Assembly: GCA_947040495.1 (NCBI GenBank)
Contig: CAMRBQ010000008.1
Location: 1-64,000, forward strand
Direction: 5' to 3'
DNA: 64,000 nucleotides
Origin: an uncultured Spirochaetia bacterium
GTDB taxonomy: Bacteria; Spirochaetota; Brachyspiria; Brachyspirales; Brachyspiraceae
Shown here: one piece after another, positions 19,637-26,059 of the stretch
Numbering within the stretch: the stretch's first letter is position 1
Layout: every line of letters starts with the position of its first letter
Position numbers and translations under genes: made by a program
The notes under the pieces: model-generated
What the model was told of the DNA's origin: nothing
Seen by the model: only the letters and a program-made list of their open reading frames with translations
The model's database searches: none

Positions 19637-19769
19637 GGGCAAAACAATAGAAAATTACACTACGTTAAGACGATATTATAAACGATATAATAGGAAAATA
19701 AAATATGCTAAATAATTATACTTTATAGACTATCTGTAGATTTTATATATTATAGATTGATTTATAAAA

Positions 19770-19798
19770 TTGTTTGTTCTATACTATAATACTATAAT
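19770..19798 (+). promoter_or_regulatory. Promoter of the TfoX_C-like gene
   Basis: TTGTTT (19770-19775), a 17-base spacer and TATAAT (19793-19798). The predicted transcript would begin near 19805 and reach the AAAGGA ribosome-binding site and ATG at 19821 almost at once. This supports the start at 19821 over the earlier in-frame ATG at 19770. Confidence 0.55.
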
Positions 19799-19820: not shown

Positions 19821-20075
19821 ATGATAAAACTAACTTCTATGACAAATATTGGTAAAGAAATGGAAAAAAAACTTAAATCAATTGACATTTTCTCTGCAGA
19901 AGATTTAATACAAGTAGGTAGTAAAGAAGCTTTCTCTCGTTTGAAAAAGCGATATTCAAATATTTGTTTGGTTCACTTATATACACTTCAAGGGGCAATT
20001 GATAATATTGAACAAAATCAACTCTCATCTGAAGTCAAAAGCAGCTTGAAAATATTTAATGATAGCCTGAAATGA
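19821..20075 (+). CDS. TfoX C-terminal-domain protein
   Basis: An 84-residue protein matching the stand-alone TfoX/Sxy C-terminal domain. It opens with a helix-hairpin-helix-like segment (LTSMTNIGKEMEKKLKSI), followed by DIFSAEDLIQVGSKEAFSRL and CLVHLYTLQGAI. In gamma-proteobacteria full TfoX regulates competence. Lone C-terminal domains are widespread and of unknown role. The N-terminal domain is absent, and the gene has its own promoter and ribosome-binding site, so it is probably a genuine small gene and not a fragment. Confidence 0.65.
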   Translation: MIKLTSMTNIGKEMEKKLKSIDIFSAEDLIQVGSKEAFSRLKKRYSNICLVHLYTLQGAIDNIEQNQLSSEVKSSLKIFNDSLK

Positions 20076-20151
20076 AAAACATATGCATATAACAACAGTA
20101 TTGATATTTTTCCGAGAGTTATTTTATTATTTATAATAAAGGAAATATTTT

Positions 20152-20457
20152 ATGAACAAAAAGATTATTGAAGTGGTTACATTCCAAGTTAAAAACGATG
20201 TATCCGAAGAACAACTTTTGAAACTATCTCATGCTTTTGAGCTGGCATTAAAATGTGAGGCTCGTGGATTCATAAAACGCTCACTCACAAAACATTGCAC
20301 ACAAGATAATAAGTGGGTAGAATTAATTTGGTGGAACTCTATGGAAGATGCACAGGCAGCATTAGAAAAGATGCCGCCAACAATTGAATTCCAAGAGTAT
20401 TCTTCCGCATTAGAAGAAGAAGGGTCTGAAATATTCTATCTAGAAGAAAAGGGATAA
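20152..20457 (+). CDS. Small ABM/dimeric alpha-beta barrel-like protein
   Basis: A 101-residue soluble protein resembling the antibiotic-biosynthesis-monooxygenase (dimeric alpha-beta barrel) fold. It has a beta strand EVVTFQVKNDV, a helix SEEQLLKLSHAFE, GFIKRSLTKH and VELIWWNSMEDAQAALEKM. No catalytic residues can be assigned from sequence. TAAAGGAAA precedes the ATG. The function is unknown and the family call rests on the overall pattern. Confidence 0.5.
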   Translation: MNKKIIEVVTFQVKNDVSEEQLLKLSHAFELALKCEARGFIKRSLTKHCTQDNKWVELIWWNSMEDAQAALEKMPPTIEFQEYSSALEEEGSEIFYLEEKG

Positions 20458-20469
20458 AAGCATACAATA

Positions 20470-21603
20470 TTAATGGCTAAACTCCAAAATATAATGCCTA
20501 ATCGCCTCATCAGGATAAACATCTTTCTCATCGCCATATAATATAGCACTCATTATATCAGCCTGAGCCTTACAAACCATAGAGTTATAATAACAATCTT
20601 TTTGAGAATAATCAGCATAACCCGCGCCCGCCTCGCCACGCTCATGCCATTTCTTAGCTTCTCTAAGCATTTTTTCATATTCACTTTAGCTAGAAGTATT
20701 TTCAAAATATTTATCAATTTTATCATAATCAATAAATCTTACAATTTTTTCGCCAAACTCAAATAGATATTCGGGCTACTCATCCAATGCATTGAACTCT
20801 TTGTATAATTATGAATTTTTACATTTTCCCAATCATCCGTATCCGCTTTATCAGGGTGCGTTTTTGAGATTAAAAAATTATTATAAGTGTTCTTGTGTTC
20901 ATCTTTTATTATAAAATTAGTTTGCCCTCTATCAGCAGTTTTTCTAATGTCATCCAAAGGCAGAGGTATGCCGCCTGATGTAACATTATCCATTTTATAA
21001 TAAAAGCCTTGGCTAGTTTTCGCCCAAGCAGGCTCAAGTGCTTTTGGTGTAATAGGGGTTGCATATCTAGGCCTATCTTTATCATAATAATTAAACGCAT
21101 TATCGTGATTATATTCATGAGATTTCTTGAAATTTGCTTTATTATCTAGTTGCCAATTTATTCCATCAGTTGTCGACCAAATATCATCATATTTATGTCT
21201 TGTATAGCTAGTCCATCTACCACCACAATCTGGATGAATATGCATTCCATTATCAGCACCATCTGATATAAAAAGCCTATCTCCATCTTTTGACAAACTG
21301 ACATCAAATGACTGATTGCCATGATCAGTTCTTTCTCCCCATTCAGGTGTTATTATTTCCCAATTGCCATTTACCGTTCCATCTTTATTTTTATGTATTC
21401 TTTTATATGTCGTCTCTGTTAAAGAATATGGACCCACACTGGCAGATCTACTACCTAAAGGCTTCTTTTCATTAAAATATTCAGTTCACTTAACACATAG
21501 TAGTAGTCTTTAAAAATATTATATTAGCACTCATAGTAAGTCCAAGCCTTTTTTGCCAACTGTCGCTTTCGCCACCAGCTGCAACAGGCTTTGGTAAATA
21601 CAT
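20470..21603 (-). pseudogene. Decayed gene of unknown function (several frame breaks)
   Basis: One gene of about 375 codons seems to run from ATG 21603 (preceded by AAGGAAG) to 20470, but it is broken. The first part, MYLPKPVAAGGESDSWQKRL onward, stops after 38 codons. The main part (about 21490-20739) is in another frame. Near 20745-20790 the sense moves to a third segment, LFEFGEKIVRFIDYDKID, which meets a TAA at 20686-20688. The tail then continues SEYEKMLREAKKWHERGEAG to 20470. The body has sialidase-like Asp-box echoes (STTDGINW). No family is recognised with confidence. Confidence 0.6.
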
Positions 21604-21646
21604 TAAAATTTCTTCCTTGAGAGAGAGGTGGATTAGACATATAACT

Positions 21647-22051
21647 TTATTTTATTTTTACTAAATTATCTGTATATACATATCTATAAATAGATTTTAT
21701 TAAGTCTGTGTATGGATATTTTTCACCATACTCTTCGGAGCGTGCATAACTAGTTGTATCTCCATATGCTATATGTCCATTAGAACTAGATGTTTGATGA
21801 TACCATATTTTGTTCTCTTCAATTATTAGATTATCATTATTATAAAAATACCATAAGTTATTATTCATATTTTGATCTATTATTGAAATATCTTTTTCAT
21901 CATTGAGCCTTATTAAAGACTTGCTCGACCTTTTATTTAATGTTTTTGTAGTTGGTTCATAGTGATAAATGTTGTCAACCAAGACATGCCATTTGCCTTG
22001 ATATATAAAGCGTTTGCAAAATCCTCCAAATACTACATTATCAGTGGGCAT
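21647..22051 (-). CDS. Hypothetical protein, possibly 5'-truncated
   Basis: A 134-residue protein rich in Asn, Tyr and Lys, with no signal peptide and no recognised domain. A central block reads NNNLWYFYNNDNLIIEENKI and the C-terminus YTDLIKSIYRYVYTDNLVKIK. An in-frame TAG lies a few codons before the ATG and no good ribosome-binding site is visible, so the gene may have lost its 5' part. It sits beside a decayed gene and a truncated ruvX copy, in keeping with a rearranged zone. Confidence 0.35.
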   Translation of the reverse strand: MPTDNVVFGGFCKRFIYQGKWHVLVDNIYHYEPTTKTLNKRSSKSLIRLNDEKDISIIDQNMNNNLWYFYNNDNLIIEENKIWYHQTSSSNGHIAYGDTTSYARSEEYGEKYPYTDLIKSIYRYVYTDNLVKIK

Positions 22052-22134
22052 GTACTGGCTCTATATCAATATATATATTTATATTAGGTATAAAATAAAG
22101 TAATACAAATATATGTCAAGAAGAAAGCATCATC

Positions 22135-22366
22135 AATTTTATATCTTCAAATATATACAATTGACTTTAATATGCTATAATCTTCAAATAAAATTTAATC
22201 GATAAAATAATAATTTATGATACTCTCAGTAGATTTTGGAAGAAAAAGAACAGGTACTTCTATACTTGACTATGAAATAGAAATATCATCCTTAAATAAA
22301 CCCATAGAAGAAAGCAATATTGATACTGTTGTATTTAAGATTCCCTATCCAACAAAGGCATGGTAA
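22135..22366 (+). repeat. Partial duplicate of the ruvX upstream region and 5' end
   Basis: Bases 22135 to about 22345 match 24255 to about 24505, including the non-coding upstream stretch with its extended -10 box TGC-TATAAT. The match is close to base-for-base over roughly the first 130 bases. Inside the coding part the upstream copy lacks 48 bases (16 codons) at a short GAAA repeat and then diverges. Together with intact ruvX it forms a direct repeat that flanks the small-gene cassette between. Confidence 0.8.
22217..22366 (+). pseudogene. Truncated ruvX copy
   Basis: The reading frame starts MILSVDFGRKRTGTSILDYE, the same as the intact RuvX protein encoded at 24337 except for minor changes. 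It jumps over 16 codons to EESNIDTVVF, and then loses similarity and stops at TAA 22364-22366 after 49 codons. The RNase H-like catalytic core is incomplete, so no resolvase activity is expected. Its upstream region, including the extended -10 promoter, is preserved and may drive the genes that follow. Confidence 0.8.
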
Positions 22367-22468
22367 GCAAAAATATATATTTATATCAATATACATAAAG
22401 AAGGGTTAGTTTTAAAAAATAATATATTGGAGTTATAGATTAATATAGAATATTTTGATAAGATAGAA

Positions 22469-22735
22469 TTGTATTTTAATAATAATTTTAAAAATATAGA
22501 AGCTATGGTAAAAAAGACATTATCTAAATCTGTTAAGCAAGTTGCAACAAAAGGGATTATGTACTCAGTAGAACCGTTTGAGAATGAGTTTCAATATGGT
22601 AAAAGAACATCAAAAAAAATATTGCCAGAAATTGCTCCTCTAGATGATTGCTACCAAGTGCATTTTGATGAACAAGACAGAATTATAGCAGTAGATATGG
22701 CATCAGAATTTTTATCTAAACCTAATAAAATATAA
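22469..22735 (+). CDS. Small hypothetical protein in the ruvX-flanked cassette
   Basis: An 88-residue soluble protein of no recognised family. It has a basic N-terminal helix (VKKTLSKSVKQVATKG) and a C-terminal segment CYQVHFDEQDRIIAVDM. The TTG start has no ribosome-binding site. The frame stays open upstream to an ATT at 22439-22441, which sits 6 bases after a good GGAG (22429-22432), so the gene may use or have lost a start there. The DUF4279 gene follows after 13 bases. Immunity-like cargo is possible from context only. Confidence 0.45.
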   Translation: MYFNNNFKNIEAMVKKTLSKSVKQVATKGIMYSVEPFENEFQYGKRTSKKILPEIAPLDDCYQVHFDEQDRIIAVDMASEFLSKPNKI

Positions 22736-22748
22736 GAGGCGGATTAAA

Positions 22749-23162
22749 TTGAAAGAATCTAATAAATGTTATACATATTTCAAGATAACAGGAAAATTTA
22801 AACCAGATGATATTTCAGATATATTGAAGCTAACACCAACAAAACAATGGAATATTGATGATACTCGAAAAAATAACACAAGATATGATTTTTCACTATG
22901 GGAATTTGGTAGATGTGATACTTATGATGTCTTTGTAGAAAAACAAATGATGAAAACAATTAAACCACTTACTAGTAAAATAAACGAATTATGCAAGATC
23001 AAAGAAATGTATGATGCCTATTTTACATTAGAAATTGTCCCATCACTTTATGTGGGGGAAATAAATCCTTGCCTTGCACCAAATAAAGATGTCATAAAGT
23101 TTTGCTATGAGACGGATACGAATATAGATATTGATTTATATCTTTTTGATTCAACGAAGTAG
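22749..23162 (+). CDS. DUF4279 family protein
   Basis: A 137-residue protein with the DUF4279 pattern. It has an N-terminal YFKITGKFKPDDISDILKLT strand-helix, PTKQWNIDD, a central SLWEFGRCDTYDV and a C-terminal NIDIDLYLFD. Members are often small stand-alone cytoplasmic proteins in polymorphic-toxin immunity arrays, but no biochemical role is known. It starts with TTG, preceded by GAGGCGG at a good distance. It is the second gene of a small operon inside the ruvX-flanked cassette. Confidence 0.65.
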   Translation: MKESNKCYTYFKITGKFKPDDISDILKLTPTKQWNIDDTRKNNTRYDFSLWEFGRCDTYDVFVEKQMMKTIKPLTSKINELCKIKEMYDAYFTLEIVPSLYVGEINPCLAPNKDVIKFCYETDTNIDIDLYLFDSTK

Positions 23163-23370
23163 AGTCTATTATAACTATTGTGCACAGCCCCAAAAATGAC
23201 CTATGATGCATAAAATTCACTTTGTTTTTAATGACTAAATTCATATATTATCGCTTGATTTACGGAATAGTTTGCTATATGGTATATAATAATTGTTACT
23301 TTAATAATTCTACCGCTCTTGATTTTTTCTTGTTCATATAAAAACTATATTTTACAAAAAGAGGCATATT
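23163..23370. other. AT-rich gap between two cassette genes
   Basis: Nothing was recognised here apart from an AT-rich promoter-like stretch around 23265-23290 containing TATAAT. The gap is large compared with the spacing between the two preceding genes, so the next gene is probably transcribed separately. Confidence 0.3.
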
Positions 23371-23709
23371 ATGGCAATAGATGGAGTTGGGATTATAGAT
23401 AGTGATTGTGCTCATGATGTGTATAACCCAATAATGGAAATGTATCATTTAGGACAATCCATAGAAAGTATTAGAAACAACATGGATGCATTTAAACCCA
23501 ATTTTATATACAGCCAATTGGAACATGAGATATTTATCACAACATATGCTTTGGCTATGTGGGAAATTGGCGGTCTTACAAATGAACAATTAGAGAAAGT
23601 AAAATGCATTGTATCTAAAGGGGTGAGTAAACTATGGAATGAAATAGACAAAAATGAGCAAGCAGACCGTCAAAAAATTCTTAATAAATTCCTCAAAAAA
23701 ATAGAATAG
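23371..23709 (+). CDS. DUF4259-like small protein
   Basis: A 112-residue acidic protein whose start MAIDGVGIIDSDCAHDV resembles the DUF4259 signature (G-x-GIF-x-ND-x-A-x-D). The rest is helical, with EHEIFITTYALAMWEIGGLT and a lysine-rich C-terminus. DUF4259 proteins are also common among immunity-type neighbours of polymorphic toxins. AGAGG lies 6-7 bases before the ATG. The family call is moderate, since the match is to the N-terminal motif. Confidence 0.5.
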   Translation: MAIDGVGIIDSDCAHDVYNPIMEMYHLGQSIESIRNNMDAFKPNFIYSQLEHEIFITTYALAMWEIGGLTNEQLEKVKCIVSKGVSKLWNEIDKNEQADRQKILNKFLKKIE

Positions 23710-23778
23710 CCTAATCTCAAGATAAAGAAGCGAAAAAATTATAAAAAAAAGATAGATTTATTTTTCAATGCTGAAGAA

Positions 23779-24174
23779 GTGTATATTATCCAATTTGAAG
23801 AAAATAAGACATATGGAGCGGTTATTCTCATCATGACATTTCAAGAAGATAGGACGCTCTATTATGGATTTGCTGAAATAATATTACGTTCAAAAACAAA
23901 ACCAACATTAGAAGATATTTTACAATGTAGCATCCATGCAAGAATCAATATTGGATTTGACAGCATAAGAATAGTGAGCCACAAAAATCTATCAACATAT
24001 AAGCAAAAATTTGAAAAAATAGGTGCCTTAAAAATTAAAGATATTAACCGTAAATTTGGTACCCAAGACGGTGCAACATATAACACATTTGAAAAGTTCT
24101 GCGATATGTGGAATGATAATGGCGGGCGAAGAAACAAGAAAAAAATTCGTGAATTAAAGGCTTTATTAGAATAG
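23779..24174 (+). CDS. Hypothetical protein of the cassette
   Basis: A 131-residue basic, soluble protein of unknown family. It opens YIIQFEENKTYGAVILIMTF, has FGTQDGATYNTFEKFCDMWN near the C-terminus, and ends with a lysine/arginine-rich helix. The GTG start lacks a ribosome-binding site. The frame is open back to the stop codon of the preceding gene (23707-23709) without any ATG, so the true start may be lost or non-standard. It could be another immunity-like protein. Confidence 0.4.
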   Translation: MYIIQFEENKTYGAVILIMTFQEDRTLYYGFAEIILRSKTKPTLEDILQCSIHARINIGFDSIRIVSHKNLSTYKQKFEKIGALKIKDINRKFGTQDGATYNTFEKFCDMWNDNGGRRNKKKIRELKALLE

Positions 24175-24336
24175 CTATTAATTAATTATTCGGGCATAAA
24201 AAACAAGCATTGCAGGCAACACCTCAAAATCTTAAACAAAACTAATCCATAATAAATTTTATATCTTTAAATATATACAATTGACTTAAATATGCTATAA
24301 TCTTCAAATAAAATTTAATCGATAAAATAATAATTT

Positions 24337-24774
24337 ATGATACTCTCAGTAGATTTTGGAAGAAAAAGAACAGGCACTGCTATACTTGACTATGAAGTAA
24401 AAATACCATTCCCACATAAACTCATAGAAGAAACTAATGCTCGCAAAATAAAACGACAACTAATGGACATCATAAAAGAAAGCAATATTGATACTGTTGT
24501 ATTTGGGCTACCACTATCTGACAAAGGCGAGGAAAGCCTATGGTGTTTAGAGATAAGACAATTTGCAGAGTGGCTAACAAAGAGTGTTAATGTAAATATT
24601 ATATTTGTCAATGAATATGCAACCTCAAAAGAAGCAGATACTATACTTAAAGGAAAAAAGAAGAGTGTAAAAAAAACTAGTAGAGATTTAATTGCAGCCG
24701 TTTTAATCCTTGAAACTTTTATATATTTAGAAGAATTGGAAAAAAGCAAAAACAACTATAACGAAAACACTTAA
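24337..24774 (+). CDS. ruvX: Putative pre-16S rRNA nuclease / Holliday-junction resolvase-like RuvX (YqgF)
   Basis: A 145-residue protein of the YqgF RNase H-like family. It begins with the metal-binding strand MILSVDFGRKRTGTAILDY (Asp6) and contains VVFGLPLSDKGEESLWC (about 54-70), VNEYATSKEA (about 96-105), and a C-terminal SRDLIAAVLILE with the last acidic ligand. YqgF trims the 16S rRNA 5' end and is essential in many bacteria. A truncated second copy lies at 22217-22366. An extended -10 promoter (TGC-TATAAT) sits about 40 bases upstream. Confidence 0.88.
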   Translation: MILSVDFGRKRTGTAILDYEVKIPFPHKLIEETNARKIKRQLMDIIKESNIDTVVFGLPLSDKGEESLWCLEIRQFAEWLTKSVNVNIIFVNEYATSKEADTILKGKKKSVKKTSRDLIAAVLILETFIYLEELEKSKNNYNENT

Positions 24775-24868
24775 GAATTATAGGTAATCTGTCGATATTT
24801 TCTTATAATCTCATTATATTAAAGTATATTAGAGTGCAATAAAATGTATAAATTTATTTGGAATGATA

Positions 24869-26059
24869 ATGTTATATAAACAAATAAACGTCCTTATAAT
24901 AGACGATTCTAAAACAATATGTAATTCTATAAAGCATATAATAGAACAAAATGAAATGATAAAAGTAGTCGATTTTGCCCATGATGGAAAAGATGGCTAT
25001 AAAAAAATAGTAGAACATAAACCAGATATCATAATATTAGATATAAATATGCCTGTAATGGATGGGCTTTCACTTCTACAATTTTTGCGAAGGCAAGATG
25101 TTTGGGTGAAATCTATAATACTAAGTAGCCTAACAACATCGGGAAGTAGAACAACTATAAAAGCATTAAATTTAGGTGCGTTAGATTTTGTACATAAACC
25201 AGAAACAGGCTTCAATAGTATAGCTGACGAATTAATAGATAAAATTATAAAACTATCTACTATAAATACATCGAGTATAAGTAAATATATTTCTCCAATG
25301 ACAGAAGATGAAATTGATTTTGAAAAAACAGCTATATATAAAGATTTAGCCAATATACAAAAAGATAATAATAAAAATGAGAGCAAAAAATCAGCATTAG
25401 ACAGAAGTTTATATGCAAAACCAACAAATGTAAGTAGCATAGAATATCTAAAAAATAAAATACCAGATGATTTTATAAAACCAAAACTTATAGTAATCGG
25501 TGTATCAACAGGCGGACCTAAGGCTTTGCATATGATTATCCCTACTATACCAAAGACATTTCCATTACCAATACTTATAGCACAACATATGCCAGAAGGC
25601 TTCACATTGCAATTGGCATCTTCTATTAATAATATCTCTGAAGTAGAAGTAAAAGAAGCAGTCAATGGAGAAATCATTAAAGCGGGCACAGTATATATAG
25701 CACCAGGTAGAAGGCAAATGGGCATTGAAGTTAGTACACTTAGGGACATATCAATAAATGTCACTGAAAATATTCATGGGCTAGACCAAGCACCATCTAT
25801 AAACTACCTATTTGATTCTGTAGAAAAGAATATCGCATCTTCTGCAATAGCTGTTTTAATGACAGGGATGGGCTCAGATGGCGCAAAATCACTTTTAAAA
25901 CTACATCAAAAACATGCCCTCACCATAGCCCAAGATAAAGAAAGCTCTACTGTATTTGGAATGCCGCGTGTTGCTATTGAACTCGGTGCTGCCAAAGTTG
26001 TATTAAAATTAGAAGATATCATACCTTTTATACAAGAGGTTCTAAAAAAAGTTAGATGA
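24869..26059 (+). CDS. cheB: Chemotaxis methylesterase/glutamine deamidase CheB
   Basis: About 396 residues. An N-terminal response-regulator receiver domain has the DD pair near 12-13 and phospho-acceptor Asp58 in ILDINMPVMDG. A long linker (about 125-205) leads to the CheB methylesterase domain with catalytic Ser213 in GVSTGGPKAL, His240 in AQHMPEG, and Asp337 in MTGMGSDGA. It removes methyl groups from chemoreceptors. TTTGGA lies 6 bases before the ATG at 24869, favouring it over the ATG two codons earlier. The following lipoprotein gene overlaps its stop codon (ATGA). Confidence 0.93.
   Translation: MLYKQINVLIIDDSKTICNSIKHIIEQNEMIKVVDFAHDGKDGYKKIVEHKPDIIILDINMPVMDGLSLLQFLRRQDVWVKSIILSSLTTSGSRTTIKALNLGALDFVHKPETGFNSIADELIDKIIKLSTINTSSISKYISPMTEDEIDFEKTAIYKDLANIQKDNNKNESKKSALDRSLYAKPTNVSSIEYLKNKIPDDFIKPKLIVIGVSTGGPKALHMIIPTIPKTFPLPILIAQHMPEGFTLQLASSINNISEVEVKEAVNGEIIKAGTVYIAPGRRQMGIEVSTLRDISINVTENIHGLDQAPSINYLFDSVEKNIASSAIAVLMTGMGSDGAKSLLKLHQKHALTIAQDKESSTVFGMPRVAIELGAAKVVLKLEDIIPFIQEVLKKVR

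Follow-up and report, generated by a model that had tools for sequence, protein, structure and literature searches.

The 5' end of ruvX, together with about 89 bases before its start, is present twice in the window (the whole stretch of 64,000 nucleotides analysed), 2,120 bases apart, with a few small genes between the copies (Table 1). How did this arrangement arise, and does it act as a unit? An earlier note on this DNA had described a broken and an intact ruvX 2.1 kb apart. The alignment confirmed both copies and corrected the extent of the broken one from 22135-22366 to 22128-22363. For comparison we used 28 other genomes of the family and 391 other genomes of the phylum, none of the same species or genus. 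The flanks of ruvX were compared in 20 of the 28 family genomes, and all neighbourhood counts below rest on these 20.

Table 1. Features of the ruvX locus and the region upstream of it
Feature	Positions	Strand	Basis or remark
Decayed paralogue of 503-aa lipoprotein gene	20470-22051	-	DNA match to intact copy G000:C2:297-1808 (G000 is this genome); ORF; tblastn
Left copy of the ruvX upstream region; extended -10, TATAAT at 22176-22181	22128-22216	+	4/89 bases differ from 24248-24336
ruvX pseudogene, 5' part only, with 48-nt in-frame and 1-nt deletions, stop after 49 codons	22217-22366	+	Alignment; homology ends at about 22363
c1, 88 aa from TTG 22469 or longer from ATT 22439 (about 88-97 aa)	22439-22735	+	ORF; no relative
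c2, intact DUF4279 gene, 137 aa, TTG start	22749-23162	+	Pfam PF14106, E 7.9e-17
c3, 5' portion of a gene interrupted by TAG 23707-23709	23371-23709	+	Same frame as c4; unbroken in relatives
c4, second part of the c3 gene; first listed restart codon GTG 23779	23731-24174	+	Same frame as c3
Upstream region of intact ruvX, extended -10 at 24296-24301	24248-24336	+	Alignment; promoter scan
Intact ruvX, 145 aa	24337-24774	+	Pfam RuvX, E 3.3e-28

A truncated and an intact copy of ruvX

The left copy, a fragment of 236 nt, aligns to 24248-24543 with 20 differences over 232 aligned bases and is truncated at its 3' end. The alignment consists of a block of 180 nt with 14 differences (22128-22307 and 24248-24427), a second block in which 4 of 37 bases differ (22308-22344 and 24476-24512), and, after the 1-nt deletion, a third of 15 nt with 2 differences; the 48 nt missing from the left copy correspond to 24428-24475. 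The alignment scored 352, compared with a best score of 72 in 200 mononucleotide shuffles, while on neither side, upstream of 22128 or past about 22363, did homology rise above the level of dinucleotide shuffles. No other family of direct repeats in the window reaches 60 nt, and a search of the genome itself with the repeated DNA returned matches at those two places only. We considered and rejected the possibility that the left copy is a full-length ruvX in decay: the 3' extension scored 31.5 against shuffle maxima of 40-52, a value equalled or exceeded by 32, 42 and 167 of 500 shuffles under three settings and by 556 of 1,000 under a fourth.

The function of ruvX is supplied by the intact copy, which is 63-75% identical to ruvX of the 28 relatives. 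The open reading frame of the left copy has a weak Pfam RuvX match (E 0.024, below the cut-off) and, because conserved codons have been lost, it is a dead gene. Each of the 16 coding differences between the copies was scored against ruvX of all 28 family genomes. At 10 of them, the base of the intact copy occurs in at least 27 of the 28 relatives and that of the fragment in at most one. At site 22277 it is the fragment that has the common base (27/28), at site 22342 the fragment's base occurs in 18 of the 28 relatives and the intact copy's in none, and the other four differences give a mixed pattern. On these counts, most of the change between the copies, though not all of it, is in the fragment.

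The genes between the copies

The DNA between the copies had been read as four small genes; we count three, since c3 and c4 are a single gene split by the TAG. They lie in a common frame here, and in five other genomes (G048, G167, G287, G338 and G367) they form one unbroken frame of 207-327 aa. Alignment with three of these five runs through the TAG, with matching residues on either side; in G367 the frame itself ends early, at 207 aa. Relatives of c3 were found in 7 and of c4 in 6 of the 391 other phylum genomes, and both occur in the five just named, all of f19, a different family of the phylum. Unless a restart or readthrough is used, the gene is broken.

Relatives of c2 occur in 3 of the 391 genomes, the best being in G001 (63% identity, same family) and G347 (54%, family f19). 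Among the 28 other family genomes, DUF4279 is found in one, at another place. In G001, two nearly identical 427-aa lipoprotein genes, presumably of the sugar-binding type, stand in tandem beside the DUF4279 gene (L088 4733-7474). By its Pfam match, which clears the cut-off by a wide margin, c2 belongs to the DUF4279 family. A Salmonella paper (PMC13304343) links domains of this family to the immunity proteins that accompany polymorphic toxins, and c2 may still make an immunity-type protein. It has seven plasmid matches, all below 60% identity; in the three of these regions that were examined, no polymorphic toxin is annotated beside the match, and one of the three has an adjoining PemK/MazF-type toxin gene.

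For c1, a Shine-Dalgarno-like GGAG ends 6 nt before ATT 22439, so placed that the ordinary start may have been lost, or the TTG further in may be used. No relative of c1 was found in the 391 phylum genomes and no match in Pfam; c1, c3 and c4 are all absent from the 28 other family genomes. Searches of NCBIfam, PADLOC, PHROGs and PDB gave nothing convincing for any of c1 to c4, viral contigs gave one weak match for c3 and none for c1, c2 or c4, and plasmids gave none for c1, c3 or c4. Single-sequence structure models had a mean pLDDT of 43.3 for c2 and 49.5 for c3 and were not used. With open reading frames of at least 40 aa listed, the Pfam matches of c1 to c4 include no integrase, recombinase or transposase and no restriction or modification domain, and PADLOC had no match to them. 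The GC content of the cargo, 0.286, is close to the 0.304 of the window, so the cargo is not marked as foreign by its composition.

The surroundings of ruvX here and in relatives

All 28 other family genomes have a single ruvX match, and in the 20 examined its flanks are other than here. The same two-copy arrangement and cargo, had all relatives carried it, was to have counted against the earlier note's reading; it is in fact absent from them. A gene for a U32 peptidase lies upstream of ruvX in 20/20 relatives and directly so in 17; in the other three (L040, L047 and L050) other genes intervene, without a ruvX fragment. The suggestion that ruvX is a general anchor of variable small genes thus found no support. 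In L040 and L050 (genomes G002 and G006) the genes that separate ruvX from the U32-peptidase gene belong to one and the same pair of families and are encoded on the opposite strand, a second and unrelated insertion at this junction. A ruvX scan of genome contigs returned one distant match only, and among the paper titles listed for ruvX/yqgF duplication none describes a locus of this kind.

In this genome the U32-peptidase gene is on another contig (G000:C87:4078-5415), with no ruvX after it, and tsaD, which adjoins ruvX in G001 and G003, is 4.5 kb away. On the strength of these two separations, either ruvX has moved in this lineage or its surroundings have been rebuilt. A derivation of the ruvX promoter region from the sequence behind the genome's own U32-peptidase gene was rejected, as 711 of 1,000 shuffles scored as well.

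Upstream of the fragment, on the minus strand, lie the remains of a gene whose intact 503-aa paralogue we take, from its leader sequence, to be a lipoprotein. By tblastn, amino acids 50-143, 226-428 and 418-503 are found in frames -1, -3 and -2, and two stretches are missing. The minus-strand reading frames here were considered as a toxin and rejected, being pieces of this lipoprotein. The stretch 20470-22051, which the coordinates of the earlier note leave out, is part of the same degraded zone as the ruvX fragment and the cargo: from 20470 to 24240 the DNA is degraded throughout, as seen in the decayed lipoprotein and in the split c3/c4. Just upstream of the zone, 19821-20075 encodes a protein of 84 aa that has a TfoX C-terminal domain (Pfam E 1.3e-18). 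Between c2 and c3, the gap sequence 23240-23293 resembles the sequence upstream of that gene (19742-19798) with a score of 41, the best of 60 shuffles reaching 39; the two are perhaps a common promoter-like stretch.

Origin of the locus

On balance, with a confidence that goes only a little past the halfway mark, we read the locus as an insertion scar particular to this lineage: incoming DNA entered, a long stretch of the target was duplicated, and decay followed. The incoming DNA would have carried a ruvX 5' end beside orphan, probably immunity-type genes and would have recombined with the resident ruvX, either by a single crossover of a circle or by one-sided homology with illegitimate joining. 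In the product, the resident 5' fragment would have come first, then the cargo and then a complete ruvX. This last would have kept the function, leaving the left copy free to decay, and the cargo would have decayed too, c3/c4 by a stop codon and c1 perhaps by loss of its start, so that only c2 is plainly intact. In its favour, the copies match over the ruvX upstream region (85/89 bases) and are then followed by different DNA, the intact copy has the base of the relatives at 10 of the 16 coding differences, the 28 other family genomes have one ruvX each, and the cargo is patchy in the phylum, as the counts above show. A plain tandem duplication, which had also been proposed, does not fit, because different DNA follows each copy and nothing after 22363 rises above shuffles. 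Against the insertion, neither an empty-site strain nor a donor turned up, the genomes compared including none of the same genus; the Pfam matches of the cargo contain no integrase or transposase, and its GC content does not set it apart. The nearest relative of c2, moreover, is in the same family, which allows inheritance and loss. If the family is Brachyspiraceae, a candidate vehicle would be VSH-1, a gene-transfer agent that transfers random fragments of 7.5 kb there (PMC3163572). Excerpts from the literature offer precedents both for homology-facilitated illegitimate recombination (PMC5361080) and for insertion with long target duplication (PMC1643837, PMC3031569, PMC3154945).

The main rival to a one-step insertion is a stepwise history. 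Here the 5' end of ruvX would have been partially duplicated on the spot, template switching being one way, and the cargo would have arrived independently of this, in a zone that is poor in genes and decaying. The degradation of the whole of 20470-24240 speaks for it, as does the parting of ruvX from its U32-peptidase gene and from tsaD, since this implies that the neighbourhood was rearranged more than once. However, it needs two events where one suffices, and the cargo is bracketed by the repeat; we regard it as possible, at a good deal less than even probability. The insertion, on our preferred reading, lies in a stretch that was already unstable and decaying. An artefact of assembly in a metagenome-derived contig is the least probable account that we considered. 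The genome is 96.6% complete in 165 contigs and an exact repeat of 86 nt can mislead short-read assemblers, but the copies are told apart by 20 of 232 positions and by deletions, and must therefore be two real sequences.

That exact repeat is the longest identical run between the copies (22169-22254), which begins at the -10 box, extends as far as the 13th codon and includes the first 38 coding bases. A run of 86 nt was reached in 142 of 100,000 permutations of the 20 differences over the 232 positions, an optimistic figure because the statistic was picked post hoc. The run sits oddly with simple decay and may reflect selection on promoter and start, gene conversion or chance. The extended -10 is repeated, as the earlier note had seen (TG.TATAAT in both copies, ending at 22181 and 24301), and the cassette may share the ruvX promoter. 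The ruvX fragment might even owe its retention to a role of its promoter and start region in driving c1 and c2; the identical run, and the lack of any terminator-like site on the + strand from 20000 to 25000, would agree with this. Gene conversion or chance would produce such a run too, however, a broken leader of 49 codons would come first in translation, and c3/c4 is broken. Promoter calls are also weak here, because 41 promoter-like sites were found where shuffles lead one to expect 35.4. We think such a capture unlikely. Still more doubtful is its fuller form, in which the fragment survives as the captured promoter and start of translation of orphan immunity genes, with the intact ruvX serving as the gene-conversion template that refreshes the 86-nt region while the rest decays.

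Comparison with known systems

As a unit, the locus probably does little. It is a compact example of small orphan genes settling next to a core gene with no mobile element in evidence, and it shows what remains once a duplicated target and its cargo decay. What the earlier note saw of the two copies, the unusual cargo and the repeated extended -10 stands; its gene count, in which a nonsense-split gene was read as two, had to be corrected; ruvX as a general anchor found no support, and a plain tandem duplication does not fit. DUF4279 and the c3/c4 family appear here in a further context, with no toxin gene alongside. For scans of this kind, the lesson is that cargo between a broken and an intact copy of a gene is not necessarily a system.

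Some integrative elements insert at the end of a host gene and rebuild it in doing so. They likewise leave a truncated old copy and a complete new copy around their cargo, whereas the cargo here has no integrase match. Another parallel is found in the insertions with long target duplication in Helicobacter pylori (Nobusato et al. 2000, as cited in PMC1643837, PMC3031569 and PMC3154945), where, in the passages that describe them, cargo also lies between long direct repeats of host sequence with no evident transposase. In those passages the cargo frequently, though not of necessity, consists of restriction-modification genes and two strains are compared; here the cargo comprises the DUF4279 gene c2, the split c3/c4 and the orphan ORF c1, decay has affected the left repeat, and the locus is known from one genome. 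Orphan immunity genes, as portrayed in parts of papers on the Vibrio cholerae T6SS arrays (PMC5361080) and on the Bacteroidales (PMC12247911), are similarly small immunity-type genes without an adjacent toxin, patchy among relatives. In contrast to those arrays, no secretion or toxin gene lies alongside here, one of the three genes is in a family called immunity-associated, and two of the three look damaged; in place of several intact immunity genes in a row there are a split c3/c4 and a c1 without a family or an ordinary start. On the best reading this is an ordinary insertion scar and not a system of a new kind; the pattern is known, its cargo new.
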